Source of the DNA: Robertkochia aurantiaca
GTDB lineage: Bacteria > Bacteroidota > Bacteroidia > Flavobacteriales > Flavobacteriaceae
Assembly: GCF_020166495.1 (NCBI RefSeq)
Contig: NZ_JAINZS010000001.1
Coordinates: forward strand, 1-64,000
Direction of reading: 5' to 3'
DNA: 64,000 nucleotides
A program made the translations under genes and the position numbers. Below are positions 18,819-55,805 of this stretch, one piece after another (the first letter of the stretch is position 1; each line of letters begins with the position of its first letter). A model generated the notes under the pieces. That model saw only the letters and a list, made by a program, of their open reading frames with translations. It was not told the DNA's origin and searched no databases.

Positions 18819-19292
18819 TTAGCTCTGCCTTCCGGCCTCAGGATAGTGATTCCTCAGAAAGCCGTCGCATGCCCGGGTTAAAAGGTCATATACTTTCTCG
18901 AAGCCGTCTTTTCCACCGTAATAGGGATCAGGAACTTCCCTCGTCGAGGTGTCAGGGGCATATTCCAGTATCATTCGAACTTTTTTGCGGTCTTCTTCAT
19001 CTCGGGCTTTAGCAATGACATCGTTGAAATTGCTTTGGTCCATGACCAGAATATGATCGAATTCGTCAAAATCTGATGTTTTGAATTGTCTGCCCCGCTG
19101 TGAGGTGATGTCGATCCCGTATTTGCGGGCTGTTTCTACCGAGCGTTTATCGGGAGATTCTCCAATGTGATAATCAGAGGTGCCTGCAGAATCAATGATG
19201 AAATCCTCGGGTGCGATACTGCTCATGATACCTTCTGCCAGGGGAGATCGGCAAATATTTCCCAGACAGACCATGAGTATCTTCTTTTTCAT
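18819..19292 (-). CDS. Low-molecular-weight protein-tyrosine phosphatase
   Basis: A 157-residue cytosolic phosphatase. The P-loop CLGNICRSP (Cys9 to Arg15) near the N-terminus and the general-acid loop EVPDPYYGG near residue 124 are both intact, so it should be active on phosphotyrosine or small phosphoesters. Its start overlaps the last base of the dnaA stop, giving a coupled dnaA-phosphatase-methylase unit. Confidence 0.92.
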   Translation of the reverse strand: MKKKILMVCLGNICRSPLAEGIMSSIAPEDFIIDSAGTSDYHIGESPDKRSVETARKYGIDITSQRGRQFKTSDFDEFDHILVMDQSNFNDVIAKARDEEDRKKVRMILEYAPDTSTREVPDPYYGGKDGFEKVYDLLTRACDGFLRNHYPEAGRQS

Positions 19293-20719
19293 TACTGTGC
19301 GAATTTCTTGTTCAGGTCTTCGATATATTTTCTGAACTGCTTATCGGTTTCAGCCAGGTTGTCTACCGTTTTACAGGCGTGTAAAACTGTAGCGTGGTCA
19401 CGTTTCCCTATTTGTGAACCAATGCTGGCCAGAGAGGCCTTGGTATATTTTTTTGCAAAGAACATGGCGAGTTGACGGGCCTGTACTATATGACGCTTAC
19501 GGGTCTTTGATTGCAGGGTGGCAACATCCATTTGAAAATAATCAGAGATAACCTTCTGTATATAATCGATGGAAACCTCGCGTTTGGTATTCTTGACAAA
19601 TTTCTCAACGATCTGACTTGCCAGGTCGAGTGTCACTTCTTTTTTGTTGAATGAAGACTGAGCGATCAGGGAGATTACCGCACCTTCCAGTTCCCTGACA
19701 TTGGTCTTTATATTCTGAGCCACGTATTCGATGATTTCTTCAGGCATTTCAACTCCGTCACGATAGAGTCGGTTCTTCAGAATGGAAATACGGGTTTCGT
19801 AATCAGGACTCTGAAGTTCAGCCGAAAGACCCCATTTGAAACGGGAAAGCAGTCGTTGTTCAATATCCTGCATATCTACAGGAGCTTTGTCGGAGGTCAG
19901 TATTACCTGCTTGCCGTTCTGGTGGAGGTGATTGAAGATGTGAAAGAACACATCCTGGGTGCCTGATTTTCCCGAAAAGAACTGTACATCGTCGATGATC
20001 AGAACATCGATCAATTGATAGAAATGTATAAAGTCATTACGGGTGTTCTTTTTGACCGATTCGATATACTGCTGGGTGAATTTCTCAGCACTGATATATA
20101 ATACGGTCTTCTCCGGATATTTATCTTTTATCTCAACCCCAATAGCGTGAGCGAGGTGTGTTTTTCCAAGCCCCACACCACCGAAAATCAACAGCGGATT
20201 GAAAGAGGTGCCTCCGGGTTTGTTGGCAACCGCCATTCCTGCCGACCGGGCCAAACGATTGGAGTCTCCTTCCAGGTAATTGTCGAAACTGTAATTCGGA
20301 TTTAACTGAGATTCGATCTTTATATTTCGAATGCCGGGAATTACAAACGGATTCTTTAATTCAGGATTTTTATGTTTAACGGGAACATCGAGTTCCTGCG
20401 GCTGCATATTCGCTCGATTCGAACTGGGAATGCTTTCAGTAAACGGTTTTTTGTTTCCGTAGGTGTTCTCCATCCGGATCACATATACCAGCTTGGCATT
20501 TTCACCAAGCTCCCGGGTGAGCGCTACTTTAAGAAGTTTAACATAGTGCTCTTCCAGCCATTCGTAAAAAAATTTACTGGGTACCTGAATGCTCAATGCG
20601 TTATCAGTAAGCTTCACCGATTTGATCGGTTCGAACCAGGTTTTGTAAGCCTGGGGTTGGATATTATCTTTTATGAATTCCAGACAATTATTCCATACTG
20701 ATTCGGCAGTCAAGTTCAT
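19292..20719 (-). CDS. dnaA: Chromosomal replication initiator DnaA
   Basis: A 475-residue initiator. Domain I (1-85) has the SVWNNCLEFIKDNI start. The AAA+ core has Walker A GGVGLGKT at 180-187 and Walker B LIIDDVQFF near 240. Domain IV carries the DNA-binding signature KRDHATVLHACKTV near residue 450. It binds DnaA boxes and opens oriC. It is transcribed leftward with the phosphatase and methylase genes. The 202-bp upstream gap to the thioesterase gene is AT-rich. Confidence 0.97.
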   Translation of the reverse strand: MNLTAESVWNNCLEFIKDNIQPQAYKTWFEPIKSVKLTDNALSIQVPSKFFYEWLEEHYVKLLKVALTRELGENAKLVYVIRMENTYGNKKPFTESIPSSNRANMQPQELDVPVKHKNPELKNPFVIPGIRNIKIESQLNPNYSFDNYLEGDSNRLARSAGMAVANKPGGTSFNPLLIFGGVGLGKTHLAHAIGVEIKDKYPEKTVLYISAEKFTQQYIESVKKNTRNDFIHFYQLIDVLIIDDVQFFSGKSGTQDVFFHIFNHLHQNGKQVILTSDKAPVDMQDIEQRLLSRFKWGLSAELQSPDYETRISILKNRLYRDGVEMPEEIIEYVAQNIKTNVRELEGAVISLIAQSSFNKKEVTLDLASQIVEKFVKNTKREVSIDYIQKVISDYFQMDVATLQSKTRKRHIVQARQLAMFFAKKYTKASLASIGSQIGKRDHATVLHACKTVDNLAETDKQFRKYIEDLNKKFAQ

Positions 20720-21572: not shown

Positions 21573-24086
21573 ATGAATCGTTCTCTGCAATTTTTCATCT
21601 TCTTTTTTTTGCTTATCAATCTTTGTACTGCTCAAACCGAATCGGCCATTCGGGTGAACCAGGTGGGTTACCGCCCGCATGATATAAAATCAGCCCTCCT
21701 CATCGCCTCTGCAACTTTTGATAAAGACAGCCTCGGGTTGTATGATCAACTTACCGATGCGCTCATCAGGAAGATCGCAGTTTCAGACGCCCCGGAGGCT
21801 TATTATGAGCTCGAGAGTGTTTACCAGGCAGATTTCAGTGATTTCAAGGAGCCGGGTGCGTACTACCTGGGAGCCGGGTCTCTGCGTAGTCCGGCCTTTT
21901 ACATATCTGAAAATGTGTATGCGGGTACGGCAGATTACCTGTTGCATTATCTGCGCTCAAGAAGATGCGGGTATAATCCCTATTTCAAAAAGAGTTGCCA
22001 CGTCGACGATGGTATAATTATCTACCATCCGGATCGGGAAGGGGAAAAGATCGACGTGAGTGGCGGCTGGCACGATGCTTCAGATTATCTGCAATATGTG
22101 ACGACTTCGGCCAATGCGGTCTTTCAGTTGCTGTTCGCCTATGAGCAGAATCCGCATGCTTTTGACGACCGCTATCAGGCGTCGGGTTTGCCGGGGGCTA
22201 ACGGTATTCCGGATATACTCGATGAAGCGAAGTGGGGGCTTGACTGGCTGGTGAAGATGAATCCCGAGCCCGGGCTGATGTTTCATCAGATAGCAGACGA
22301 CCGGGATCACCGCAGTTTTGATCTCCCTTATAAAGACACTCTCGATTACGGGTATGGAAAAGGAAAGGAGAGGCCCGTTTATTATGTGACCGGTAAACCT
22401 CAGGGTTTGATGGAATACCAGAATAATTCTAACGGAAAAGCCAATATTGCCGGTAAGTTTGCTTCAAGCTTCGCCCTGGGATCAGAGCTGCTCAAGCCTT
22501 TTTACCCTGAATTTTCACAGCTGCTAATCGAGAAGGCCCGTTCAGCATATGTCACGGGAAAAGAATATCCCGGAGTTTGCCAGACGGCTCCCTGTCGTGC
22601 TCCTTATTTTTACGAGGAAGAGAATTGGGAAGATGATATGGAGCTGGCAGCCATGCAGCTCTATCAGCGAACCAAAGAGGTGAATTATCTGTCTGATGCC
22701 TTGAAGTTTGCTGCTCAGGAGCCGGTAACACCCTGGATGAAGCAAGACAGTGTCAGGCATTATCAGTATTATCCCTTTGTTAACCTCGGGCATTATTATA
22801 TGAGTAGTGCAGGGGCGAAGGATGAAGGTCTTAAATATTACCGCCAGGGAATCGATCATTATAAAAAAAGATCGTCCAAAAATATCTTTCTTAACGGGTT
22901 GCCATTCGTTTGGTGCTCCAACAATCTGGCAGCAGCCATGCTGACCCAATTAAGTCTATCAGCCCGACTTCAGCCTGAAACTTCTTCAGTTGAAACGGAA
23001 TCGGCTCTCAGAGACTGGCTTTTCGGAAGAAATCCCTGGGGAACCTCCATGGTGGTGGGCTTGCCTCAACATGGGGATTATCCCGAAGATACACATGCGG
23101 CCATTTCTCATTATACAGATGAAGAGCCCTGGGGCGGACTGGTCGACGGTCCTGTTTACGGTAGTATCTTTAAGAGCCTGAAGGGAGTGAAGCTGGCCGA
23201 GGAAGATGAGTATGCTGCCTTTCAGACCTCAAGGGTGGTGTATCACGACGATTGGGCAGATTATTCAACCAATGAGCCTACCATGGATGGAACGGCCAGC
23301 CTGACCTATTACCTGTCTTCGCTGGTGCCTGAAAACCGTACCGATAATAATACCTATTACAAAGATGCCCTGATCAGGGGTGATTCTACCAAAAAACAAA
23401 TAGCCCTGATCTTTACGGGCCATGACCGGGCAGAAGGATTTGACAAAGTGAATAAAGCCCTGAAAAAACATAATGTGAAGGCCTCCTTTTTCCTTACGGG
23501 TGATTTTTACAGAAACCCGAAATTTAAGAATATCATCAGTACCCTAATCGATGAGGATCATTACCTGGGGGCCCATTCAGACAAGCACCTGTTGTATTGC
23601 AGCTGGGAAGATCGCGATTCACTACTTGTAGACAAAGCCCTCTTCCGTAAAGACCTGAAGGCTAATTATGCCGCTATGGCGAGTCATGGCATCAACAAGA
23701 GCGATGCTTTTTTTTATCTGCCACCCTACGAATGGTATAATGAGAAAATTTCCCTGTGGACGCGTGAAAACGGACTTAGGCTCATAAATCATTCACCCGG
23801 AACGAACAGCAATCAGGATTGGACCACCCCCGACCTGGGTGACAGGTACTATTCAAATGAAAGACTATGGAAGGGTATAACGGGATATGAAACCGAAAAG
23901 GGACTCGAAGGGTTCCATCTCCTGCTGCATTTCGGTACAGATGAAAAACGTCAGGAGAAATTCTATGATCGACTTGACCAACTGATAGAGGAATTAAAGA
24001 AGAGGGGTTACAGCTTTGTGCGTATCGACCAGATGCATGAAAAAAATCTTCAGCCTGTTTTTGTACCGGGCGGGGATGACCTATAG
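21573..24086 (+). CDS. GH9 cellulase-like / polysaccharide deacetylase-like fusion, secreted
   Basis: An 837-residue protein with a signal peptide cut near LCTA-QTE (residue 20). An N-terminal Ig-like cellulase domain (RVNQVGYRPHDIKSALL, about 25-115) precedes a GH9 (alpha/alpha)6 domain (about 118-590). GH9 catalytic residues appear present: Asp168 and Asp171 in GGWHDASDY and Glu568 in STNEPTMDGT; NPWGTSMVVG is also typical. A NodB-like domain follows (about 605-825) with TGHD (615-618) in place of TFDD, HSDKH (668-672) and LPPYE (716-720). It should act on a beta-glucan or related glycan outside the cytoplasm; the substrate is unknown. A 255-bp gap precedes it. Confidence 0.88.
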   Translation: MNRSLQFFIFFFLLINLCTAQTESAIRVNQVGYRPHDIKSALLIASATFDKDSLGLYDQLTDALIRKIAVSDAPEAYYELESVYQADFSDFKEPGAYYLGAGSLRSPAFYISENVYAGTADYLLHYLRSRRCGYNPYFKKSCHVDDGIIIYHPDREGEKIDVSGGWHDASDYLQYVTTSANAVFQLLFAYEQNPHAFDDRYQASGLPGANGIPDILDEAKWGLDWLVKMNPEPGLMFHQIADDRDHRSFDLPYKDTLDYGYGKGKERPVYYVTGKPQGLMEYQNNSNGKANIAGKFASSFALGSELLKPFYPEFSQLLIEKARSAYVTGKEYPGVCQTAPCRAPYFYEEENWEDDMELAAMQLYQRTKEVNYLSDALKFAAQEPVTPWMKQDSVRHYQYYPFVNLGHYYMSSAGAKDEGLKYYRQGIDHYKKRSSKNIFLNGLPFVWCSNNLAAAMLTQLSLSARLQPETSSVETESALRDWLFGRNPWGTSMVVGLPQHGDYPEDTHAAISHYTDEEPWGGLVDGPVYGSIFKSLKGVKLAEEDEYAAFQTSRVVYHDDWADYSTNEPTMDGTASLTYYLSSLVPENRTDNNTYYKDALIRGDSTKKQIALIFTGHDRAEGFDKVNKALKKHNVKASFFLTGDFYRNPKFKNIISTLIDEDHYLGAHSDKHLLYCSWEDRDSLLVDKALFRKDLKANYAAMASHGINKSDAFFYLPPYEWYNEKISLWTRENGLRLINHSPGTNSNQDWTTPDLGDRYYSNERLWKGITGYETEKGLEGFHLLLHFGTDEKRQEKFYDRLDQLIEELKKRGYSFVRIDQMHEKNLQPVFVPGGDDL

Positions 24087-44251: not shown

Positions 44252-47200
44252 ATGAAAAGACTGCTATTCACGATCCTCCTGCTGGGGGGTATTTCGTTGG
44301 GAATGGCTCAATCAGTTTCAGGAACTGTGAGCGACCAACAGGGAATACCGCTGGCCGGAGTGTCGGTATTGATCAAAGGTACCACAGAGGGTACCTCGAC
44401 GAATTTTGACGGGGAGTACAGCATTGATGCTTCCGGCGATGATGTGTTAATTTTCTCCTATGTGGGGATGCAAACCCTGGAAGTGCCTGTGAACGACAGA
44501 TCACAGATCAATGTAACCCTTCGTGAAGATGCCCAGGCTCTTGATGAAGTTGTGGTAACAGCCCTTGGTATCGAAAGAGAGAAAAAAGCACTGGGATATG
44601 CCTCCCAGGAATTACAGACCGAACAAATTCTTCAGGTTCCGGAAACCAACGTGGTAAGTGCCTTACAAGGAAAAGTGGCCGGTGCACAGGTCACCCGTAA
44701 TGGTGGTGCTCCCGGACAAGGTTCGCGAATCGTTATTCGTGGTGTAAATTCACTTTCTCCCAACGCTCCCAACCAACCGCTTTTTGTAATTGACGGAATT
44801 CCGATCAGTAATGACACCTTTACCGCAGGCGGAGGAGGATTCAGAGGACTGACCAACAGGGCTGCTGATATCAACCTTAATGATGTAGAGAATATTTCTG
44901 TTCTAAAAGGAGGTGCGGCAACGGCTCTGTACGGAGTGCGTGGTGCCAACGGGGTGATCGTGATCACTACCCGTTCAGGCCGTGAAGGGCGTACCGAATT
45001 CAACCTGAGTGCTACTTCAGGGATCGATTATGTAAATAAGTTTCCTGTAGTACAACGTGAATATACTCAGGGTTATGCCGGTGCATATGATACCAACAGT
45101 TTCTGGCCTACATGGGGTCCCACGGTAGCAGAGGCGAGGGAGCTAGATCCTGAGCATCCTGATGAGATCTTTAACAACTTCAGAAATGCCTACCAGACCG
45201 GTTACAACACCAACCTGCACTTTGATGCTTCAGGTGGTAACGAAAAGGCAAGCTTCTATGCTTCAGTAGGGCATTTCAACCAGGAAGGGGTACTTCCTTT
45301 TGCAGATTTCACCAGAAATTCTGCTAAGATCAATGGTAAGATCAAAGTGGCTGATAACTTTACCATCAACGGTTCTGCCAACTATATCAATTCAGGAGGT
45401 AACCGTGTGGATGTGGATCTGTTCAATACACGACTGATCTACTGGGCTCCTGCCAAAGATGTGACCGACTTCGAATTTACCGAAGGACCACTTGCCGGGA
45501 CCATGAAAGGGTACCGTTTTGACGGACAGGTTGGAAACAACCCGATTTACGGGGCTAAAACCAATCGTTTCGTTGATGATGTTGATCGTTTTATCGGAAA
45601 CATCGGATTTGACTTTCAGCCTTTTGAGAAGGTGAACATTACTTACCGTTTTGGTATCGACAGTTATAACGACAGCCGTTCTGCCTTTGCTCCCGGGCCT
45701 ACCGGAATTGAAGGAGAGGCTATTTTTGAAAACAACGGACTCGGTTATGTGAGGGAAACACGTATCAATAGTGAAGATCTTACATCAACCCTGATCGCTA
45801 CATACCAGACCGATCTGGGCGAAGATTTCGACCTGACGATTCGTGGTGGACTTGATGTATTCCAGAGGGAATATAACAGGGTGACTACCAATGGTAATGA
45901 ACTTGACGTATATAACTTTTTCGCGTTGCAGAATGCTTCGGTCATCACGGCTGACCAGTTCAGAAGCCTGAGAAGGCTTTATGGAATCTACGGGGAACTG
46001 AGTATGTCTTACCGCGATCTGCTTTACCTGACCATAACAGACCGTAATGACTGGTCTTCGACCCTGGGAGAAGACAACCGTTCTTTCAACTATCCTTCTG
46101 TGAGTGTAGGTTATATCTTCACTGAGCAATTCAATACACCTTCCTGGTTCCAGTATGGTAAACTGAGAGGTTCATGGTCTCAGGTAGGTAAAGATGCCTT
46201 CCAGGCTTACCTTACAGCAGACGGATATGCTCCTGCCAGTGGCTTCCCGATCGATGAAACTACAGGGTGGACCCGTTTCAACCAAAAAGGCGATCCTAAC
46301 CTGGTGAACGAATTGACCACTGAGATCGAATTCGGTGGAGAGTTCAGAATGTTCGATAACAGACTGGGGCTCGATATTGCCTATTACAAATCGAATTCTG
46401 AAAACCAGATCTTAACCGTGCCGGTAGCACTTTCTTCAGGATACAGCGTTTTTGCCACCAATGCCGGGGAGATCCAGAACCAGGGTATCGAGATGATCTT
46501 TAATGCCGCTCCCATAAGAACCATGGATTTCGGCTGGGATGTGCTGGTGAACTTCTCTACCAACGATAACGAGGTGATCTCGATCAGAGAGGGATCAGAA
46601 AGCATTCCGCTTGGAAGTGACTTCGGGTATGCCGGTAGTACTGCTACTCAGGCCCTTTACCCGGGTCAGTCGTACGGAGCTATTCTCGGTACTTCATACG
46701 CCCGTTATTACGAGAACCCGGAAGATGAAGATCCGCTGGTATTGGATGAAGATCGTCCGATCCTGATAGGTGAAGATGGTTTCCCTGTGATAAACCGTGA
46801 TCAGAAGATCCTGGGTACTTCAACTCCTGACTGGATCATGAATATTCAGAACACCTTCAGGTATAAGAATTTCTCTCTGAGCTTTGCCTTTGATTTCAGG
46901 GAAGGTTTCCAGAAGTTTAACAACTTAGATAACTTTATGTCTGCCTTCGGTATTTCTGATTATACGACCAACAGAAATGACGTGGTGGTTTTTGAAGGTG
47001 TGACTGCAGACGGACAACCTAATACCCAGGAGGTATTTCTTGGTCAGGCAAATGCTCCTGACGGATTTACTGCCCTGAATGGAGGTTTCTACAGAGCTAA
47101 CTACAGAGCTGTGACCGAGAATTTCGTTCAGGATGCATCATGGGTGCGTCTTCAGAACCTGAGTCTGAGCTATAATGTTCCTACCAGCCTGATCGATAAT

Positions 47201-47377
47201 ATCGGACTGACGAGGGCTTCCCTGTCGTTATCTGGTACCAACCTGTTCCTATGGACCGATTACAACGGTTGGGATCCCGAAGTGTCGATAAATCCGGGTA
47301 ATGTTGATGGATTTAACGGTCTGGCCGCTCACCCCGGTTTAAAGACCTATGCTGCGACCCTGAAACTATCATTCTAA
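44252..47377 (+). CDS. SusC/RagA-family TonB-linked outer-membrane transporter
   Basis: A 1041-residue protein. A signal peptide ends near GMA-QSVSG (residue 19). A carboxypeptidase-like domain (VSGTVSDQQGIPLAGVSVLI, about 21-100) leads to the SusC marker LDEVVVTALGIEREKKALGYA, a plug domain (about 115-230) and a barrel ending in ATLKLSF. It should import a glycan or peptide fragment together with the SusD-like partner 6 bp downstream. No glycoside hydrolase or regulator gene is fused or adjacent, so the substrate cannot be read from context. Confidence 0.95.
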   Translation: MKRLLFTILLLGGISLGMAQSVSGTVSDQQGIPLAGVSVLIKGTTEGTSTNFDGEYSIDASGDDVLIFSYVGMQTLEVPVNDRSQINVTLREDAQALDEVVVTALGIEREKKALGYASQELQTEQILQVPETNVVSALQGKVAGAQVTRNGGAPGQGSRIVIRGVNSLSPNAPNQPLFVIDGIPISNDTFTAGGGGFRGLTNRAADINLNDVENISVLKGGAATALYGVRGANGVIVITTRSGREGRTEFNLSATSGIDYVNKFPVVQREYTQGYAGAYDTNSFWPTWGPTVAEARELDPEHPDEIFNNFRNAYQTGYNTNLHFDASGGNEKASFYASVGHFNQEGVLPFADFTRNSAKINGKIKVADNFTINGSANYINSGGNRVDVDLFNTRLIYWAPAKDVTDFEFTEGPLAGTMKGYRFDGQVGNNPIYGAKTNRFVDDVDRFIGNIGFDFQPFEKVNITYRFGIDSYNDSRSAFAPGPTGIEGEAIFENNGLGYVRETRINSEDLTSTLIATYQTDLGEDFDLTIRGGLDVFQREYNRVTTNGNELDVYNFFALQNASVITADQFRSLRRLYGIYGELSMSYRDLLYLTITDRNDWSSTLGEDNRSFNYPSVSVGYIFTEQFNTPSWFQYGKLRGSWSQVGKDAFQAYLTADGYAPASGFPIDETTGWTRFNQKGDPNLVNELTTEIEFGGEFRMFDNRLGLDIAYYKSNSENQILTVPVALSSGYSVFATNAGEIQNQGIEMIFNAAPIRTMDFGWDVLVNFSTNDNEVISIREGSESIPLGSDFGYAGSTATQALYPGQSYGAILGTSYARYYENPEDEDPLVLDEDRPILIGEDGFPVINRDQKILGTSTPDWIMNIQNTFRYKNFSLSFAFDFREGFQKFNNLDNFMSAFGISDYTTNRNDVVVFEGVTADGQPNTQEVFLGQANAPDGFTALNGGFYRANYRAVTENFVQDASWVRLQNLSLSYNVPTSLIDNIGLTRASLSLSGTNLFLWTDYNGWDPEVSINPGNVDGFNGLAAHPGLKTYAATLKLSF

Positions 47378-47383
47378 AAAAAT

Positions 47384-48793
47384 ATGACTATGATCAAACG
47401 AATAGTATATACATTCATGTTGTCGGTGATCTTCTTCTCATGTGACGATTACCTTGACATTAACGAAAATCCCAACGGGGCTACCACGCCTCCGTTAGAT
47501 GGATTACTGGCGAACACCACGCAGAAATCAGGTATCAATGTATACAATGTTGGGGGTACCACTTCATTTTACACCCAATATCTCGCTTCGCCAAATGAAG
47601 CCAGTGCCACCGATATTTACGAAAGGATCAATACCGATGGTGCCTGGGGAAGTATTTATGATATCCTTTCCGATCTTTACGATATGGAAAGATTCGCCGA
47701 GGAATCCAGCTCTGTTTATTATGTTGGAATTGCCAAAACCCTGACTGCGCTGAACCTCGGAATGGCTATTGATGTTTGGGGAGATGTGCCTTTTAATGCA
47801 GCTCTTTCATTTGAAAACGTAAGTCCGGCATATGACGATCAGGAAGCTCTCTACGGGCAGCTGATCACCATGCTGGATGAGGCGATAGTAGCCTTTAACC
47901 AGGAGAATACCGGAGCCATATTGAGCGGTGACAGTGATTTTATGCATGGCGGTGATGTGGCTGCCTGGATCAAAACAGCCAATGCACTTAAAGCCCGTTA
48001 TCTGAATCATTTGAGCAACACAGCCTCATATGATCCTGCAGCGGTTAAGTCTGCTCTTGCCGGGGCATATGCGTCGAATGACGATGATGCACAAGTGGTG
48101 AGATTCCAGAACAGAAGCCCATGGGGGCAGGTAGCTGTTAATAACCAAAATCTGCTGTTAGGCGGATGGTTATCTGAACAGGTGATCGATGCCATGAACG
48201 GTACTACTTTTGGAGTGTTCGACCCGAGACTTCCGCTTATCACCAATCCGCTTCCCGACGGAACTACCTTCAGAGGTACTGTTAACGGAGAAGGACGTAT
48301 TGGAGACGGAACTGTACAGCAGGAGTGTTACCTGGTGCCGGGTGGTTTTTATTCTTCGGAAGATTCGCCACTACTGGTAGCCACCTATGCAGAGATGAAA
48401 TTCATCGAGGCTGAAGCCGAACTTCGTTCAGGAAATTCAGATGCCGCTTATGCTGCCTATCTGGAAGGAATTGCTGCCAATATGGATAAAGTGGGTGTAG
48501 ATCCCGTTGAACGTGATGCATACCTCGCCAATCCCGTTGTAGCGGTTGGAGCAGCAGCTTTGACTCTTGACCTGATCTTCAAGGAGAAGTATGTTGCCAT
48601 GTTCCTGCATCCGGAGTCATGGGTAGATGCAAGAAGGCATGATTATAACTATGCTGACTTCACGCTTCCCACCAACGCAGAATTAAACGATTTCATACTG
48701 AGATTTGATTATCCTGATACAGAATATCAAAGAAACAGATCAAATGTGCCTACTGTTGATCTGCTGACCAATATTTTCTGGGATGTTAATTAA
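47384..48793 (+). CDS. SusD/RagB-family outer-membrane lipoprotein
   Basis: A 469-residue lipoprotein with a lipobox ending FFSC (Cys20 from ATG 47384) followed by DDYLDINENPN. It belongs to the shorter SusD-like group (SusD-like_2): AMAIDVWGDVPFNAAL, AWIKTANALKARYLNHLSN and ATYAEMKFIEAEAELRSGN are typical. It forms the lid over the SusC barrel encoded just upstream. An ATG two codons later (47390) is also possible. A strong terminator follows. Confidence 0.92.
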   Translation: MTMIKRIVYTFMLSVIFFSCDDYLDINENPNGATTPPLDGLLANTTQKSGINVYNVGGTTSFYTQYLASPNEASATDIYERINTDGAWGSIYDILSDLYDMERFAEESSSVYYVGIAKTLTALNLGMAIDVWGDVPFNAALSFENVSPAYDDQEALYGQLITMLDEAIVAFNQENTGAILSGDSDFMHGGDVAAWIKTANALKARYLNHLSNTASYDPAAVKSALAGAYASNDDDAQVVRFQNRSPWGQVAVNNQNLLLGGWLSEQVIDAMNGTTFGVFDPRLPLITNPLPDGTTFRGTVNGEGRIGDGTVQQECYLVPGGFYSSEDSPLLVATYAEMKFIEAEAELRSGNSDAAYAAYLEGIAANMDKVGVDPVERDAYLANPVVAVGAAALTLDLIFKEKYVAMFLHPESWVDARRHDYNYADFTLPTNAELNDFILRFDYPDTEYQRNRSNVPTVDLLTNIFWDVN

Positions 48794-48812
48794 TTTGTAT
48801 TGTAAGTAGAGC

Positions 48813-48846
48813 AAAAGGCCTTTCCTGTTGGGAAGGCCTTTTTTTA
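48813..48846 (+). terminator. Terminator of the SusC/SusD operon
   Basis: A long hairpin (AAAAGGCCTTTCC, 48813-48825, with GGAAGGCCTTTTT, 48831-48843) is followed by T residues, 20 bp after the SusD stop. Confidence 0.88.
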
Positions 48847-49103
48847 TTTCTGCTTTTTTAAAAACTCTGCAAATGTTTATTCAAACTGTATCTTTTTGTC
48901 TGGAATAGCCTGAAATCTGAGACGAAAGAATAAGTCCTGTTACCACAAGGTGTGTTCAGGAATATCATCATAGCAATACCGGGGCTGAGCCGTGACTTAA
49001 TTATCGGGTATCAATTACACTTTAAAAAGGAACAGGGATGCCTGTATGCTCATAGGGTCATTAGTATCCAATGGCTGTCAATGATTTATTTGTGCACAGA
49101 TGC
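48847..49103. other. Intergenic stretch without a recognised gene
   Basis: About 257 bp between the SusC/SusD terminator and the terminator of the convergent murein-peptide operon. A 67-codon open frame (48952-49155) runs through the second hairpin and has no recognisable sequence. No promoter box or repeat was seen. Confidence 0.5.
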
Positions 49104-49143
49104 TAATAAAACAGGCCTCTCCCGATCGGAAAAGGCCTGTTTT
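49104..49143 (-). terminator. Terminator of the dipeptide epimerase-NlpC operon (bidirectional)
   Basis: AAAACAGGCCT (49108-49118) pairs with AGGCCTGTTTT (49133-49143). T residues follow on the plus strand, and the minus strand is also T-rich, so it could stop transcripts from both sides. It lies 37 bp after the NlpC/P60 stop. Confidence 0.8.
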
Positions 49144-49179
49144 TACGGTGTTTAAAATATTATAAAAGGTAATGTGTGG

Positions 49180-50376
49180 CTATGGTATGAAAACCGCAGA
49201 ATCTTTCAGGCGAATGATGCCCTGACTGTTCTCATTAAGCAGTCGCTGACTTCTCAGATAGCGACCTGTATTGTACGCATCATAATTCGTTCGGGTGCTG
49301 TCGGTACTGCTTATGTGTACATCTCCTGAAGAATGGATGAACTGATTGTCTCCGATCCACATACCGACATGAACGATTTTCTCTGGAGTACTGTCAGTGG
49401 CTTTTCTTCCGAAGAATAAGAGGTCACCGGGTTTCAGACTTTCAAAATTACCGGTTGAATCGATTGTGATCCCCTCGTGTACCTGTTGTGAGGCGTCGCG
49501 GGGAATGATCATTCCGTTGGCGAAATAAATGGTTTTGGTAAACCCGCTGCAATCTACCCCTTTAGCCGATGTTCCACCCCAGAGATAGGGGAGTCCCATC
49601 AGTTTTTTTGCCGTGCTGACAAACGCTTCGCTGTTCTGAGAAGTACCTGCGATCCATTCATTGAAGGGTAAAGCCTCATTCTTTCTTATAAAAGCCTCAC
49701 GCCCGTCGGGATAGTTAACATGGTAATAGGCATCAGTTTCATTTTTAAGAACCAGGACATCGCCGATAACAAGATCAGAAACCAGGGCTTCCTCCTGCTC
49801 ATTTGCATAGGAGTGTCCATATTGTTGATTATATATGATCTTAGGAGCTTTCTTCCAGGTGGTAAAGTGCTCAGTTGTCATCAGGCTTATGCCTCCGTCA
49901 TCTACCCACGCGATATATCGGTCAGGAGTTTGTACCAGGTACCAGCCGCCCACTTTCTTAAGCACCTTAACCGGCGTACCCAGGGTTGCCTGGGTAACAA
50001 GTTCAGCGGAATGACGCGGTTCACCTCTTAGGTTGGCCGCCGAAATCTTAATAACGGCCTGGTGTTTGCCTTGCAGTTCAGCTTCAGGGAGTTCTCTGAT
50101 ACTGTCTATAAAACTGACCTGTTCTTCATTTAGCTGCTTGAGAAGGTTGTTCTTGGCTCCGGGGAGATTCGTTTCTCCTTTTAACAGAATCCCGTTAGGT
50201 TGTTGTTCGGCGATCACGTGAAAGAGAGCCACTCTTTTATCGGGAGCTTCCGCCTGCTTTATGGAATCGATGATACGGGTTACAGCTTCGTTGCTTTTGT
50301 TTTCTTCGGTGCAGGACACTACCGACAATACCAGGGAAGCACCCAGAAGCATATATTTTAAATTTCTATTGATCAT
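49180..50376 (-). CDS. NlpC/P60 peptidase lipoprotein with SH3 domains
   Basis: A 398-residue lipoprotein with a lipobox ending VVSC (Cys22). Bacterial SH3-type domains lie in the middle (AVIKISAANLRGEPRHSAELV, about 105-170, and a second at 175-245), and the C40 domain is C-terminal. The catalytic cysteine is in GVDCSGFTKT near residue 269, and the histidine is in KIVHVGMWIG near 335. This make-up matches YkfC-type gamma-D-Glu-L-diamino-acid endopeptidases that trim murein peptides. It overlaps the upstream PLP enzyme gene by 4 bp, and an epimerase for L-Ala-D/L-Glu heads the operon. Confidence 0.9.
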   Translation of the reverse strand: MINRNLKYMLLGASLVLSVVSCTEENKSNEAVTRIIDSIKQAEAPDKRVALFHVIAEQQPNGILLKGETNLPGAKNNLLKQLNEEQVSFIDSIRELPEAELQGKHQAVIKISAANLRGEPRHSAELVTQATLGTPVKVLKKVGGWYLVQTPDRYIAWVDDGGISLMTTEHFTTWKKAPKIIYNQQYGHSYANEQEEALVSDLVIGDVLVLKNETDAYYHVNYPDGREAFIRKNEALPFNEWIAGTSQNSEAFVSTAKKLMGLPYLWGGTSAKGVDCSGFTKTIYFANGMIIPRDASQQVHEGITIDSTGNFESLKPGDLLFFGRKATDSTPEKIVHVGMWIGDNQFIHSSGDVHISSTDSTRTNYDAYNTGRYLRSQRLLNENSQGIIRLKDSAVFIP

Positions 50377-51431
50377 GGGTTATTTTTCTGTTTAATATAA
50401 GCGTTGAGTAATTTCGTCAGGTTTTTTATATCTGCTACCGTATGGGCGGCGCTGAGCACGATTCTGCACATTAGAGGAGAATCCGGGTCGGGATACCTGA
50501 AGTTGGTAATGATCACTCCATTGTCTTCAAGATAACGCGGAAGTTCTTCATCCTGGGTGGTAAAACAGGGATAATCGTCAACGTAGAGAAAACGGGATGG
50601 AGTGTTCAGTTCATTTAAAAATAAGCTTACGTTTCTGAACAGTTTACTTCGTTGTTCTCTGATTAGGGGATAGGCTTTCTGCACCGTTCTCAGGTTTCCC
50701 GGGTTTGCAGGACTGGCACCTCCTGTCCAGCCGTGAGCCATGATCTTTTCGATGCGCTCATGCTTTCCGGCGATAAAGCCTGCCTGGATACCAAAAGCCT
50801 TCCCCAGGGAACTGCAGCAGATCAATTCTGAAGGGCTCAGGGATAACAGTTTTTTGAAATTACCTCCGCCATCAGGGCCTGTAATTCCCAGACCATGAGA
50901 ATCATCTGCAATCAGGAGAAGTTTTTCCACCGGAAACCTTGTGAGCCACGAAAAATCCATGGGCTTTTTTCCGGCAAAATCGATGGTGTCAAATACCACC
51001 GCGGTTCTTATGCCGCTTTCAAGGCTTCTGCTGACCCTGTTATATAATTCTTCCAGGTCATTAGCCGTGAATTCCTGAGTACCGTTCCAGGCGATATGTG
51101 TACCGGGTGCGCGATAAACAGCTATGTTCTCTTCCTCAAGTACCTGCAGTAGCAAACGGCAGGCCAGAAAGCCTGATGAAGTACTGATTCCGGCTTCGGA
51201 ACCTGTGATACCAGCCAGGAATGCCTCGCTTTCTCTCAGGGCGGGAAACTGCACGTTGGCCTTCCTCGAAGCGGCATATACCGTACCATACCTTCGTATG
51301 GACTCTGTGTAAACTTCCAGAAATCCACCGTGGTGCTGGAGTCCGAGATAAGACGTTCCGCCGAAATAGAGAAACCTCCTTCCGCCGGAAACTATCTCCC
51401 TGCCGGGAAATTGATCGATCTCATGAATCAT
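50373..51431 (-). CDS. PLP-dependent enzyme, class I/II aminotransferase fold (KBL/BioF-like)
   Basis: A 352-residue cytosolic enzyme. The cofactor lysine is Lys211 in CCSSLGKAFGIQAG, Asp176 in ADDSHG pairs with the PLP nitrogen, and LYFGGTSYLGL near the N-terminus matches alpha-oxoamine synthases. It lacks an obvious acyl-CoA contact region and is shorter than BioF or KBL (about 385-400). It sits between a dipeptide epimerase and a murein peptidase, overlapping both, so it may act on an amino acid released from murein peptides. The reaction is not known. Confidence 0.85.
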   Translation of the reverse strand: MIHEIDQFPGREIVSGGRRFLYFGGTSYLGLQHHGGFLEVYTESIRRYGTVYAASRKANVQFPALRESEAFLAGITGSEAGISTSSGFLACRLLLQVLEEENIAVYRAPGTHIAWNGTQEFTANDLEELYNRVSRSLESGIRTAVVFDTIDFAGKKPMDFSWLTRFPVEKLLLIADDSHGLGITGPDGGGNFKKLLSLSPSELICCSSLGKAFGIQAGFIAGKHERIEKIMAHGWTGGASPANPGNLRTVQKAYPLIREQRSKLFRNVSLFLNELNTPSRFLYVDDYPCFTTQDEELPRYLEDNGVIITNFRYPDPDSPLMCRIVLSAAHTVADIKNLTKLLNAYIKQKNNP

Positions 51432-52441
51432 TATAACAAGTTTACTCCGCAGCCGGGCTCATCAGGAAACAATACCCTGGCATCTTTGGTGATTTTTACA
51501 CCGGTTGCAATATCGGTCTTTAACAACATGGCGCCGTCCATATCGACATAATCGAGTTGTGGCAGCAATTGAGCAATGGCTGAGATACCCACTGTTGACT
51601 CGGTCATGCACCCCACCATGACCTTCATGTTCAGTTCTTTGGCTTTTTTTATCATTCGAAGAGCAGGGGTGAGGCCTCCGCATTTGGTCAGTTTGATGTT
51701 GATTCCATGAAAATGGCCGTGACATTTTTCGACATCTTCTTCAACGATACAGCTTTCATCAGCAATTACAGGAAGTACCGATTCTTGCATCAGTAATTTA
51801 TATCCTTCCAGATCATCGGCTTTTAATGGTTGCTCCAGGAATTCGACTCCCAATTTTTTCAATTCTTTCGCATATCCTATGGTGTCTTCTGCGGTCCAGG
51901 CGCAATTGGCATCGATTCGAAAAACGGCATCAGAAGCTTTTCGCAATTCTCTGACAATGGCCACATCATCATCTGTTCCCAGTTTAATTTTATAGAGAGG
52001 CCATGGTTTAGCCTTCATTTTCGCTACCATTTTTTCAATGCTGTCGATTCCGATGGTATAATTGGTAAGAGGGTATTGGTCGTTATCGGTACCCCAGATC
52101 TGATAGAGGGGCTTACCTTTTAATTTTCCGTAGAGATCGTAAGCAGCCAGATCAAGAGCACAAATGGCAAAATTACTGAGGCCTTTTTCCTTGAGAAAGC
52201 TATGAAATACGGCAGGGTCATCAAGATCCCAGGCTTCGATCTGCGGACGAATAGCTTCGATTTCTTCTTTCATCGATTCGACCGTAATTTTATAATAGGG
52301 ATTCGAAGTCGCCTCGCCGTAGCCCGTTTTACCCTCCTGGCTCAGAGCAACGATAAGGCTGTCCTGATAATCATGTGATTCCCGGGAAATACTGAAGGTG
52401 TACTCCAGCTCCAGCACATATTTTTTTAATTCTACGTTCAT
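51431..52441 (-). CDS. Dipeptide epimerase (L-Ala-D/L-Glu epimerase type)
   Basis: A 336-residue member of the enolase superfamily, muconate-lactonising subgroup. The general bases are Lys153 in KIK (151-153) and Lys250 in INIKLTKCGG. The metal ligands are Asp178 in RIDANCAW, Glu203 in FLEQPL and Asp228 in IADESC. These residues and the operon with an NlpC/P60 peptidase fit conversion of L-Ala-D-Glu to L-Ala-L-Glu during murein recycling. The stop shares its last base with the next start (TAATG). A TACTTTTG box is 44 bp upstream. Confidence 0.9.
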   Translation of the reverse strand: MNVELKKYVLELEYTFSISRESHDYQDSLIVALSQEGKTGYGEATSNPYYKITVESMKEEIEAIRPQIEAWDLDDPAVFHSFLKEKGLSNFAICALDLAAYDLYGKLKGKPLYQIWGTDNDQYPLTNYTIGIDSIEKMVAKMKAKPWPLYKIKLGTDDDVAIVRELRKASDAVFRIDANCAWTAEDTIGYAKELKKLGVEFLEQPLKADDLEGYKLLMQESVLPVIADESCIVEEDVEKCHGHFHGINIKLTKCGGLTPALRMIKKAKELNMKVMVGCMTESTVGISAIAQLLPQLDYVDMDGAMLLKTDIATGVKITKDARVLFPDEPGCGVNLL

Positions 52442-52485
52442 GAAGATAGTGTGATTAATTTAAAGTTTTTTATTTACCTGTTCAA

Positions 52486-52493
52486 CAAAAGTA
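52486..52493 (-). promoter_or_regulatory. -7 box TACTTTTG for the dipeptide epimerase operon
   Basis: Exact TAnnTTTG match on the minus strand, 44 bp before the epimerase start, at the head of the three-gene unit. Confidence 0.6.
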
Positions 52494-52719
52494 ACGGATA
52501 AAATTTGCACTATCAGCGCCAAAACGCAAAAAAATATTGCAAAATATTGCAAAAGGAATCGTTGAAAAATCCGGCTGGTCTTTGTGAAATAAGCTTGATT
52601 CAGGCTTTTTGTATGATTACCGGCACAAGGGGCTTTAAGGAGTTGCTTCTATCCGAAAAGAAGAGATGTCCCGGAACGGTTTGACCTTAACTATCATGTT
52701 ATCAGGAGGAATTATGAAC

Positions 52720-54159
52720 TTAGAATTCTCTCCGGTCCCGCCAGTCATAATCACTTTTGATTCGTTCGTTTTTAAGATGAAGCCTTTGAAGCATCTGTTG
52801 AATTTCGTCATTCGACAGGTATTTACCATCGACAAATATACCTGCCATTTTTTGCAGGTTTTCCAGATTTTTCAAGGGGTTGGCTTCCAATATCAAAAGG
52901 TCTGCCAGCTTTCCTTCTTCAACGGTTCCGACCTTATGGTCTATTCCAAGCCACTCTGCAGGAAGTCTGGTCGCGGCAGCAAGTGTCTGTTCCGGGGATA
53001 ATCCGGCCTGTTCTAACAGATGTAATTCGTCGTGAAGGGCATAACCCCATATCACTCCTGATGAGCCGGAATCGGTGCCGGCAACCATGGGTACACCGGC
53101 TTTATGAAATGCCCCGACGAGTACTTTATTAAATTCTGCCAGGTCTTCCAGGTGGTTAACGCGTTGGGGGCTGCTTCCGATGTAATTTTTATTGGAAACA
53201 ATCCACTTGCTTTGCATGAGAGGGTGCACCAATTCGAAGCCTGCGAGGGATTTTGTTGTTTCAAGTGTGCGGGCCTGCTCTGCCATACGTTCCATTACGA
53301 TCAGGGTAGTAGTAAGCCAGAGATCATGTTTTAAGGCCATTTCTGCAAATTCTTCTGCTTTCTCAAGGTTCAATGTGTCAGCCTGCTTGGCAAACTCTTC
53401 GGCATGAGCGACCATACTGATTCTGGAAACAGCTTCTTCGGTTCTGCCCTTAAAGGTGTCGGGGATGTGACCGATTACCTTCATGTTCAGCTCACGGGCT
53501 TCCTGAACGATGGCATTAAATGTACTTTCAGAAAGATGTGAATATACCTTTATAAATTCATATCCTTCTGCTTTAGCACTTCTTACAGCCTGTTTTCCGG
53601 CTTCGGGAGTATTTACCCTGTCGAAACCTCTTCCTCCGTCGAGGAGTTTGGCAAGAGCCATTCTCGGACCGATCGCTTTACCTCCGGCGATCTCATTTCG
53701 CTGAGCTATGTGTTCAGCCCGGGCATTCAGTTCAAATGTTGTGGTAATTCCGTTAGCGATATACAGCAACATGAAGTCCTGGGTGTCAAAAAATATGGTG
53801 GCCGGTTTAGTCGGATATTTTTCACCGAAGTCTATATCAGCCAATCCGTGTACATGCATGTCTATGAGACCGGGCATAACCCATTTTCCTGTTGCTTCGA
53901 TAATCGTTGCGTTCTTCGGCACGGGTTTATTGATACCCGTGATAACGCCATTTTCGATAAGCAAGTTGACGTTTTGTATAATCTCATTCTTAGGTTTAAG
54001 GGTGATAATATTCACGTTTCTGATCACATATGCAGTAACTTCACTCTTCTTCATGCTGTCACTCTGATGGGTGGGATTATATATCGACTGGGCCTTTGAA
54101 TTATGAAAGCCAAGAAACAGAAAAAGTATGCAGCCTGATATGTTTATATATAGATTCAT
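52720..54159 (-). CDS. Secreted amidohydrolase-family metallohydrolase
   Basis: A 479-residue protein with a signal peptide (1-23, ending NSKA-QSIY) and an amidohydrolase TIM barrel. Metal ligands are His102 and His104 in IDMHVHG, a candidate carboxylated Lys204 in EFIKVYSH, His231 in VIGHIPD, His252 in MVAHAEE and an Asp near 368 in VAGTDSG. The binuclear pattern fits prolidase-like or imidazolonepropionase-like enzymes; the substrate is unknown. It follows the peptidoglycan-recycling operon on the same strand but is 278 bp upstream of it and probably separate. Beyond its stop the other frame stays open, see the rejected items. Confidence 0.88.
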   Translation of the reverse strand: MNLYINISGCILFLFLGFHNSKAQSIYNPTHQSDSMKKSEVTAYVIRNVNIITLKPKNEIIQNVNLLIENGVITGINKPVPKNATIIEATGKWVMPGLIDMHVHGLADIDFGEKYPTKPATIFFDTQDFMLLYIANGITTTFELNARAEHIAQRNEIAGGKAIGPRMALAKLLDGGRGFDRVNTPEAGKQAVRSAKAEGYEFIKVYSHLSESTFNAIVQEARELNMKVIGHIPDTFKGRTEEAVSRISMVAHAEEFAKQADTLNLEKAEEFAEMALKHDLWLTTTLIVMERMAEQARTLETTKSLAGFELVHPLMQSKWIVSNKNYIGSSPQRVNHLEDLAEFNKVLVGAFHKAGVPMVAGTDSGSSGVIWGYALHDELHLLEQAGLSPEQTLAAATRLPAEWLGIDHKVGTVEEGKLADLLILEANPLKNLENLQKMAGIFVDGKYLSNDEIQQMLQRLHLKNERIKSDYDWRDRREF

Positions 54160-54210
54160 TTTTGATTTTTTAGTTCAAGTACGAGTTTGTCGGTTGATTT
54201 TTGGGTGAGG

Positions 54211-55692
54211 CTATTCTGCAGTGCCGTTGATCTCTTTACCCAGGGAGAGATGTTGTTCTATCAGGTCGAAATAGAGTTGGTTTCCTGAATCGCTATTGGT
54301 GAAAATAACGATGCCTTCGCCGGTTTCCGGAAGCATCATCACCAGGGTATTGACTCCGATGTCTCCTCCGGTATGAAGAAGTGCAAATTGATCGTCTTTC
54401 AGACCTGGAAGCATTTCCCACCCGAGGGTCATGGCCACAGCTTCCTGAGAATTATTGGCCTGCTTTGCCATCTGGCTGTACAGGGAATCTCCCTCTGCTA
54501 TTTTTCTCATGATATAGCTGGTGAAAAGTCCGTAGTCATAGATAGTGGTCAGCAGGTTGTCTGCAGCACTTGCCGTTGCATGTTTTTCGGTGGGGTAGGT
54601 GTCTGTTCCACCGGCTTTATGCCAGCGGGCAAATTTTTCATCATCTATTGATTCATTCCATACCAGGCTGCTGTTATGCATTCCCAAGGGTTTAAAAACC
54701 AGTGAATCAACCAGCTTTTCAAGAGGTTGATCAAATTTGGCTTCCAGGGCATGCTTGAGGTATTCGAACCCTTCTCCGGAATAACCGGTGTCAGTTCCCG
54801 GTTTGAAAATGAATTTCAGTTCGTTGTCTTCGTTTTCCCACCTCCAGTTTTGAAACCCTGATTGGTGGGTTAGAATATGACGTGTGGTCAGCAGTTCACT
54901 GCTGGGGTCATTTTTCACATCGGGATCGGTGTAATAGTCTGCCAATGGTTGATCGAGGGACCATGAACCATTTTCGACAAGCCTGAGGGTTGTGAGGGTG
55001 ATTATTGGTTTGGTCAGCGAGGCTACATTGAATACGGCATCAACGGGGGCCTGTTCTCCCTTGTATATTTCTCCTGCCACCTGTACGCTTTTGAGCTCCC
55101 CGTCTTTTATCAAAGCCAAACCAAGAGTCGGAACCCCGTGTTTCTTTATTAATTCCTGAAGTGGCTCATTTTTACTGACAGGCACTTCTTTGGTTTTGTC
55201 GCCCGGGGAGAAGTGATCATAGCTGAGAACTGTTTGTAATACAAAATCTTCATCTTGTTTAAGCCACAGATGGGTGAAAAGAGCGGTGCTTGTGAGGTAG
55301 GTGTCGCCCGCACGCTCTCGGGCATAAAATTCATGAATCCCCTTTTGTATGGCTGCATATACCTTCCCGTTTCTTTTCAGGGCATAGACCTCGGTATATT
55401 CGGGCAGTAGTTTACGAAGGGGTCTGTACGAGATGCCGCATATGTTCTTGCGGGTGGTTTCCATAAAGGCATTTTTTCCTTGGGTGATGCCTGACTGATC
55501 ATGATAAAAAGTGATGCTGTCAGACACTACACCTGAAAGTGCCTGTATATCGCAATTGTTAAAGCCTGCATCGAACAATAGGCTGTCGGCTTTCATGATT
55601 TGCTGAAATAAACCGGTATCGGATTTGACCTGGGTATGGGCAACCTGAACCGATATGAAAAGTATGAATGAAAGAGAGATATTTCTAAACAT
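54211..55692 (-). CDS. NTF2-like domain fused to serine hydrolase (beta-lactamase/AmpC fold)
   Basis: A 493-residue secreted protein. The signal peptide is about residues 1-20 (ending VAHT-QVK). An NTF2/DUF4440-like domain follows (about 30-162, with SDSITFYHDQSG and LTSTALFTHLWLKQDEDF), then a serine beta-lactamase-like domain (about 175-490). The nucleophile is Ser225 in ASLTK, with the tyrosine region TGYSGEGFEY and the HTGG triad motif near the C-terminus. The start at 55692 (MFRNISLSF) gives a proper signal peptide; the frame stays open for 36 more codons. Substrates of such serine hydrolases are usually D-amino-acid peptides or esters. Confidence 0.88.
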   Translation of the reverse strand: MFRNISLSFILFISVQVAHTQVKSDTGLFQQIMKADSLLFDAGFNNCDIQALSGVVSDSITFYHDQSGITQGKNAFMETTRKNICGISYRPLRKLLPEYTEVYALKRNGKVYAAIQKGIHEFYARERAGDTYLTSTALFTHLWLKQDEDFVLQTVLSYDHFSPGDKTKEVPVSKNEPLQELIKKHGVPTLGLALIKDGELKSVQVAGEIYKGEQAPVDAVFNVASLTKPIITLTTLRLVENGSWSLDQPLADYYTDPDVKNDPSSELLTTRHILTHQSGFQNWRWENEDNELKFIFKPGTDTGYSGEGFEYLKHALEAKFDQPLEKLVDSLVFKPLGMHNSSLVWNESIDDEKFARWHKAGGTDTYPTEKHATASAADNLLTTIYDYGLFTSYIMRKIAEGDSLYSQMAKQANNSQEAVAMTLGWEMLPGLKDDQFALLHTGGDIGVNTLVMMLPETGEGIVIFTNSDSGNQLYFDLIEQHLSLGKEINGTAE

Positions 55693-55766
55693 GATGATTG
55701 ATGATGAAAAATATGAAAGTTGATGAAGCTCAGAGAGCCAAACGGGATCCTGCTCTCTGATTGTGA

Positions 55767-55805
55767 TAAAAAAAAGGTATGTACTCCTGTGGGAATACAT
55801 ACCTT
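55767..55805 (-). terminator. Terminator after the GIN-domain gene
   Basis: AAGGTATGTA (55774-55783) pairs with TACATACCTT (55796-55805), and eight T residues follow on the minus strand. It lies just after the GIN-domain stop and ends the PadR-PspC-GIN operon. Confidence 0.82.

Follow-up and report, generated by a model that had tools for sequence, protein, structure and literature searches.

The first 64,000 nucleotides of contig NZ_JAINZS010000001.1 of Robertkochia aurantiaca (RefSeq assembly GCF_020166495.1), the whole stretch of DNA that we have analysed and here call the window, include a gene for a single polypeptide with an Ig-like domain, a glycoside hydrolase family 9 (GH9) domain and a NodB-fold domain of the carbohydrate esterase family 4 (CE4) type. 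The NodB domain lacks three residues of the canonical CE4 active site and shares six invariant residues with its relatives. These are recurrently paired with GH9, some of them lie in loci for the metabolism of N-acetylmuramic acid (MurNAc) and peptidoglycan, and their presence goes together with that of MurQ and of extra copies of NamZ. We see an even chance that the protein functions in the periplasmic salvage of amino sugars, most likely from fragments of peptidoglycan, with a working NodB domain. For this the NodB domain need not be a CE4 deacetylase of the canonical kind.

The gene and its domains are as follows.

21573..24086, + strand: whole gene, 837 amino acids; a single open reading frame with same-genus orthologues
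21573..21632, + strand: Sec-type signal peptide, residues ~1-20, ending LCTA before Q, assigned by eye (helix 2-17 in the model)
21636..21887, + strand: CelD_N Ig-like domain, residues 22-105 (Pfam PF02927, 54.6 bits)
21918..23315, + strand: GH9 domain, residues 116-581 (Pfam PF00759, 244.1 bits; fold match 3x17)
23361..24053, + strand: NodB-fold domain, residues 597-827 (Pfam PF01522, Polysacc_deac_1; AlphaFold2 model; fold match 4m1b)

An earlier note on this DNA described one polypeptide joining an Ig-like, a GH9 and a NodB-fold domain, and the Pfam assignments within the one reading frame bear this out. The GH9 score of 244.1 bits lies far above the curated cut-off of 27.7, and the NodB domain scores 36.0 bits against a cut-off of 23.1, so that each belongs to its family. 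The signal peptide has no clear lipobox on reading by eye, and the periplasm is the probable destination of the protein. The AlphaFold2 model has a mean predicted local distance difference test (pLDDT) score of 84.7 for the full-length protein and 93.5 for the NodB domain. The best named match comes from Robertkochia marina. The fusion is found in two of the four other Robertkochia genomes searched, one 69% identical over residues 19-825 and the other 68% identical over residues 16-828; in one of these orthologues a TGA was counted within the matched span, where the open frame is 840 codons. Because both congeneric genomes carry the two domains in one open reading frame the fusion is not an accident of frameshift, and a frameshift or assembly artefact is ruled out as its source.

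The active site of the NodB domain

The register of the motifs was set by a profile of 34 rows aligned to PdaA, Bc1960 and other CE4 structures. Against PdaA and Bc1960 the alignment is ungapped across strand 1 and motif 1, placing the canonical TFDD at I613-F614-T615-G616. The key positions are these.

23409..23438, + strand: motif-1 region IFTGHDRAEG, residues 613-622; T615 in place of the base, G616 in place of the metal Asp, and positions 618 and 621 acidic
23574..23588, + strand: motif 2, HSDKH, residues 668-672; both His in 100/100 relatives
23718..23732, + strand: motif 3, LPPYE, residues 716-720; Arg position aliphatic and E720 invariant, each in 100/100
23817..23819, + strand: motif-4 Asp, D749, 100/100
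23928..23930, + strand: motif-5 His, H786, 100/100
23949..23951, + strand: R793, past motif 5, invariant in the subfamily, 100/100

The strings FTGHD, HSDKH and LPPYE are all present, as the earlier note had read them. It had set TGHD against TFDD and concluded that the base aspartate is replaced by histidine while the metal-binding aspartate is kept. That register is off by two. The base position is T615 and the metal position is G616; H617 and D618 each come two residues later. H617 itself varies, and among 100 relatives position 617 has 51 Asp, 39 His, 8 Gly and 2 other residues. Six rows that were duplicates or unrelated loci were dropped before one of the counts of loci, and the distant relative L044 (L and G denote our loci and genomes) lies outside one of the alignments.

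All 100 relatives have Thr or Ser at the base position 615, Gly, Ala or Ser at the metal position 616, and Leu, Ile, Met or Val at position 716 in place of the motif-3 Arg of RxPY. H668, H672, E720, D749, H786 and R793 are invariant. Motif 2 thus retains the form H(S/T)xxH, with Ser in 99/100, and the buried Asp of motif 4 is retained with the His of motif 5. An acidic residue is found at 621 in 99/100 and at 618 in 94/100. The altered motif set is the normal form of a coherent NodB subfamily. The earlier note had raised the possibility that the altered motif is the norm of a described subfamily; the first part holds in 100/100 relatives, while no published description of the subfamily was found among the matches listed for open-licence papers.

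The comparison of structures proposed by the earlier note places the domain among CE4 folds. One of the best matches is BA0150 (4m1b), with Z = 25.5 and a root-mean-square deviation (rmsd) of 1.9 over 199 aligned residues, and Bc1960, PdaA and the pseudoenzyme BA3943 also ranked high. The sequence profile is closest to peptidoglycan deacetylases such as PdaA; the score against the PdaA equivalog TIGR02884 is 54.1 bits, below its cut-off of 298.

Binding modules rarely retain a full set of polar catalytic residues. It is nevertheless conceivable that the NodB domain is catalytically dead and helps GH9 to bind or dock on glycans made of amino sugars. All 100 relatives lack the base Asp, the metal Asp and the motif-3 Arg, the pseudoenzyme BA3943 stands high in the fold search, and the CE4 protein ECU11_0510, which lacks the base Asp, is inactive (PMC5855634; this and the other papers cited were available in part). 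Yet six residues of the pocket type never vary, among them the two His of the metal site and the acid His with its Asp, and the domain also occurs as a separate gene and, in genome G300, fused to a beta-lactamase-like domain. We therefore regard a dead module as rather unlikely. CE4 enzymes have two such pairs, one of the base Asp and the motif-3 Arg and one of the acid His and the motif-4 Asp (PMC5855634, in part). Here the first pair is lost entire and the second is retained entire, and this is the pattern of a site that has been rebuilt rather than one that has decayed.

The GH9 domain and its pairing with NodB

The features of the GH9 domain are as follows.

22074..22085, + strand: catalytic bases D168 and D171 (D-A-S-D), 29/29 and 28/29 rows
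22260..22439, + strand: long loop that joins helix 214-229 to helix 290-306 and in which R244 and R267 are conserved (alignment and model)
23094..23102, + strand: H508-A509-A510, where other Bacteroidota GH9s have the triplet (H/Y)-H-(R/Q) (alignment)
23274..23276, + strand: catalytic acid E568, 29/29 rows

The catalytic residues are intact, as the earlier note had stated. In an alignment of the window protein with 28 fused proteins, taken from 37 candidates, D168 and E568 are each conserved in 29/29 and D171 in 28/29. Other positions of the domain differ. We compared 50 fused and 29 separate-gene NodB-linked GH9s with 24 generic Bacteroidota GH9s, the latter being those of 29 fetched that passed a length filter and, as best Pfam matches, biased toward typical GH9s. 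Position 509 is His in 24/24 generic sequences, but Ser (45), Ala (4) or Phe (1) in the fused proteins; the separate-gene rows have Ser in 19, Thr in 4, Ala in 2, a gap in 2 and two unread. Position 510 is Arg (14) or Gln (10) in the generic set, and mostly Ala or Ser in NodB-linked proteins. At position 174, just after DAGDxx, the generic proteins have Lys (23) or Arg (1), whereas Gln is found in 48/50 fused and 22/29 separate rows. The window protein has Q174 and H508-A509-A510, and so has neither the triplet nor the Lys/Arg of typical Bacteroidota GH9s. Arg244 is common to all 79 NodB-linked rows.

In a quick tree the NodB-linked GH9s are split from the 24 generic sequences by a long branch, with a value of 100 in the Shimodaira-Hasegawa approximate likelihood-ratio test (SH-aLRT). 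When 20 further GH9s were added, in a second tree of the same quick type with some added rows on long end branches, five joined the NodB-linked clade (SH-aLRT 99), two of them from genomes with a NodB domain elsewhere. In the comparison of residues and in the first tree, a separate-gene row stands for a GH9 gene anywhere in the same stretch; the set includes L081, where the gene is far off, and one gene that was counted twice, as L131 and L174. In the fold search the GH9 domain matches endoglucanases (3x17: Z = 34.4, rmsd 3.0, 505 aligned).

The NodB subfamily occurs in 41 of 395 sampled genomes of the phylum, at 42 places (E < 1e-50). A tblastn search of public genome contigs (E <= 1e-3) gave at least 533 stretches that encode a relative, of which the best 80 were examined; the titles of these named loci include Bacteroidota, Ignavibacteria, Marinimicrobia, KSB1 and Calditrichia. 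The search for the same domain order that the earlier note had called for was productive: GH9 and NodB are in one frame at 40 of the 80 loci. At the 40 separate loci GH9 is directly adjacent in 20 (one divergent), one gene away in 1, further off in 2 (L081 and L110), and absent from the available stretch in 17. L102 and L108 end at a contig edge, where fused and separate cannot be told apart. On the tree there are ~12 changes between the fused and separate states, at least 10 by starred branches. GH9 and NodB have thus remained partners through repeated fusion or separation.

Two loci stand apart. L134 (G300) has the same NodB subfamily from 8114 onwards in one frame with a beta-lactamase2-like domain, not GH9. 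L041 (G418, minus strand) joins a carbohydrate-esterase-like domain, CE15-like by eye, to a NodB domain with the canonical TFDD, and was set aside as another family.

A published account of the GH9-NodB pair was not found among the matches listed for open-licence papers on GH9 with deacetylase or MurNAc, NamZ, GH9 glucosaminidase, and MurQ with SusD.

Gene neighborhoods and co-occurrence across genomes

Marker genes around the relatives were called from phmmer scores > 60 bits to proteins encoded at other loci, part of which had Pfam or NCBIfam names; the stretches were of unequal length. Within these stretches 25 of 100 contexts have at least one marker; MurQ is found in 11 contexts and NamZ in 3. 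Some relatives lie in SusC/SusD loci, and some have a murein-utilization gene set beside them. Six Pontibacter genomes have SusC, SusD, GHL10, GH9, NodB, an N-acetylmuramoyl-L-alanine amidase, a metallophosphatase, MurQ, an SSF symporter and a flavin adenine dinucleotide (FAD)/Fe-S oxidase; the last may be a lactate dehydrogenase that uses the lactate released by MurQ. Echinicola has MurQ at the edge, SusC, NodB, GH9, a GH3-beta-lactamase, a metallophosphatase and NamZ. In G410, of the same family as the window, a cut SusC, SusD, SSF, MurQ, GH3, NamZ and the GH9-NodB gene follow each other on one strand. In G424 one strand has MurQ, GHL10, an AmpG-like protein of the major facilitator superfamily (MFS), AnmK and an FAD oxidase, with NagX-like, NodB and GH9 genes opposite, while G002 and G359 have GH9, NodB, MurQ and SSF in a row. 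NagA comes after NodB in L109 and L114, in one of the two between NodB and GH9, and a beta-lactamase2-type gene lies ahead of the NodB domain in L094, L103, L111, L118, L119 and L133. A DUF2911 gene also recurs at 20 loci (e.g. L048:10998-11570); in Pedobacter it usually comes right behind the fused gene or the pair of genes.

Association across genomes was tested with stratification, within families having at least one positive genome (41 positives and 132 negatives). Two or more copies of NamZ, an enzyme of family GH171, are present in 31/41 positives and 23/132 negatives (Cochran-Mantel-Haenszel z = 6.56), a value reached in 0 of 100,000 stratified draws. MurQ is present in 41/41 positives and 117/132 negatives (p = 0.0009), counted at E < 1e-40 rather than at the curated cut-off, which 271 of 395 genomes pass. 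NagX-like genes (E <= 1e-3, none over the family cut-off) are found in 40/41 positives and 61/101 negatives (p = 0.0004); this test covered 142 genomes, the full 173 less 31 negatives that belong to a single family. The GH10 xylanase control gave no association (13/41 against 48/132; expected 12.75). Family f18, nearly all of whose genomes have two NamZ copies and no NodB-domain match, has no positive and so falls outside the stratified tests.

The window gene has no MurQ, NamZ, amidase or SusC/SusD gene directly beside it. Since its own neighbors are housekeeping genes, its function is argued from its relatives. The earlier note had placed it outside any polysaccharide-utilization locus, and this is right for the immediate neighbors; it does not extend to those relatives that lie in SusC/SusD loci, and there is a SusC/SusD pair 20 kb downstream. 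The window genome has matches to MurQ-like, NamZ and AnmK proteins, and a second, better-scoring PF01522 protein elsewhere. The GH9-NodB gene is its sole GH9 match, and no GH10 match was found in it.

Other features of the surroundings are noted here. At 44252-55800 of the window a SusC/SusD-like pair faces genes for an NlpC/P60 endopeptidase, a BioF-like pyridoxal phosphate (PLP) enzyme, an L-Ala-D/L-Glu-epimerase-type enolase, an amidohydrolase and an AmpH-like serine hydrolase. From its gene content this looks like a locus for the utilization of murein peptides, 20 kb downstream of the GH9-NodB gene; the enzymes from NlpC/P60 to AmpH-like score below equivalog cut-offs. A Peptidase_S13 (D-Ala-D-Ala carboxypeptidase) gene lies nearby at 61071-62354. 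dnaA is upstream of GH9-NodB both in the window (19292-20719, one gene between) and in an Ignavibacteriaceae genome (L060:4284-5678, two genes between), probably by chance.

A number of these observations weigh against the salvage of peptidoglycan. No marker gene is present in 75 of the 100 contexts, within the stretch available, and Pontibacter accounts for 7 of the 25 that have one. The window gene is flanked by dnaA and a thioesterase gene and by UPF0029 and EamA. Its genome has a single NamZ copy and, alone among the 41 positives, lacks a NagX-like gene. Three of the five GH9s added to the clade (G007, G030 and G179) come from genomes without a NodB match. The five added contexts (L195-L199) contain neither MurQ nor NamZ, though L199 has GHL10; no marker was found in L195-L198, nor in L200-L204, the five contexts taken from a sister group of GH9s. 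By fold the GH9 domain resembles endoglucanases (Z = 34) more closely than it does GH9 exo-glucosaminidases (Z = 27-28). The family strata take away only part of shared ancestry, and the inactivity of ECU11_0510 counts on the same side.

A different amino-sugar polymer might be the substrate, of the chitin or chitosan type or another, with the deacetylase serving a GH9 glucosaminidase as in the GH9 exo-glucosaminidases of Vibrio. Such GH9 enzymes do exist (PMC6096475, in part), and NagA and NagX-like genes are among the neighbors. But MurQ, AnmK, NamZ, AmpG-like and amidase neighbors belong to MurNAc and peptidoglycan metabolism, and the NodB domain tracks NamZ copy number. Moreover the long helix 9-10 loop that closes the -2 subsite in the Vibrionaceae enzymes, residues 404-442 in VC0615, is matched in the model by one of ~14 residues (435-448; helices numbered by eye). 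Neither loop length nor fold Z supports a Vibrio-type exo-GH9 identity, and we consider such a substrate unlikely.

It is very unlikely that this is an ordinary enzyme of plant or algal cell walls, a GH9 endoglucanase with an acetyl-esterase-type domain, for although its nearest GH9 structures are endoglucanases and a GH9 of another Robertkochia species is listed as a cellulase (PMC9690682, in part), the subsite triplet is changed, the GH9 clade is separate, and the window genome has a single GH9 match and no GH10. PF01522 domains are joined to some long xylanases according to one survey (PMC4928363, in part); a link to xylan or plant fiber was rejected here, the NodB domain having no association with GH10. 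The earlier note's outline of a substrate both beta-linked and acylated is probably correct. A framing in terms of glucans is not supported, since the loci of some relatives and the co-occurrence data point to amino sugars of peptidoglycan and there is no link to GH10.

A possible salvage pathway and related systems

In the proposed salvage of peptidoglycan fragments we infer what the substrate and the leaving group are, in which order the steps occur and which residues catalyze them. The NodB domain would be a hydrolase that retains the two metal His and the acid His with its Asp, and that has lost the base Asp together with its Arg partner. A new base and third metal ligand might come from Glu720, which adjoins the Tyr of the oxyanion hole, or from the acidic residues at 618 and 621. 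The domain would strip an acyl group, most likely the N-acetyl of N-acetylglucosamine (GlcNAc) or MurNAc, from a saccharide derived from a muropeptide. GH9 enzymes are inverting and take no assistance from the 2-acetamido group. With its changed subsite triplet, the GH9 domain may next cleave the beta-1,4 bond formerly blocked by the acyl group. The resulting glucosamine (GlcN) and MurNAc would enter catabolism of the MurT/MurQ and NagX/NagA types, with MurQ and NagA in the cytoplasm. NagX has been proposed to re-acetylate periplasmic glucosamine (PMC9007349, in part), and this fits the NagX-like gene beside NodB and GH9 in G424.

A more specific form of this scheme is possible but doubtful. 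A non-cellulolytic GH9 clade of Bacteroidota and the wider Fibrobacteres-Chlorobi-Bacteroidetes (FCB) group would cleave peptidoglycan sugars in one polypeptide with a NodB enzyme whose base and metal ligand have moved (to Glu720 and acidic 618/621), Arg793 reading the lactyl carboxylate of MurNAc, and would provide a salvage route beside NagZ and NamZ. GH9 genes are readily listed as cellulases (e.g. in the available part of PMC9690682). If the peptidoglycan reading is true, an entire GH9 clade of the FCB group would be misannotated in this way, and the NodB domain would be a natural example of a CE4-type fold in which the metal and acid His stay while the base, its partner and the metal Asp are replaced together.

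Parts of this scheme are found in known systems. The Vibrionaceae exo-beta-D-glucosaminidases PBPRA0520, VC0615 and VP2484 share GH9, an N-terminal Ig-like/Fn3 domain and an amino-sugar context with the window protein, but the available part of their description mentions no NodB partner (PMC6096475); their identity to the window GH9 is 20-21%, with Z = 27-28, and their long helix 9-10 loop is not in its model. The murein utilization locus of the Urechidicola symbiont combines SusCD, MurQ, AmpG, amidase, GH3 and GH171 in a Bacteroidota locus for polysaccharide utilization; the glycoside hydrolases named in the part of the paper available are GH3, 18, 171 and 10, with GH9 and NodB not among the names (PMC10199937). 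In Tannerella forsythia the MurTKQ/AmpG cluster brings together a MurNAc transporter of the sodium-symporter type, MurQ and AmpG, and no GH9-NodB pair is mentioned in the available parts of PMC5790795 and PMC7670621.

The CE4 peptidoglycan deacetylases PdaA, Bc1960 and BA0150 share with our subfamily the NodB fold, H(S/T)xxH, the motif-4 Asp and the motif-5 His. They differ in that the subfamily is without the base Asp, metal Asp and motif-3 Arg, and has an invariant Glu after PPY/PPF and an extra invariant Arg. In Thermococcus, Dac and GlmA are separate proteins that act on chitin oligosaccharides by deacetylation followed by a glycosidase, and GlmA, a glucosaminidase of family GH35 according to the part of the literature available, is not a GH9 enzyme. 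The logic of the steps is the same as that proposed here for NodB and GH9.

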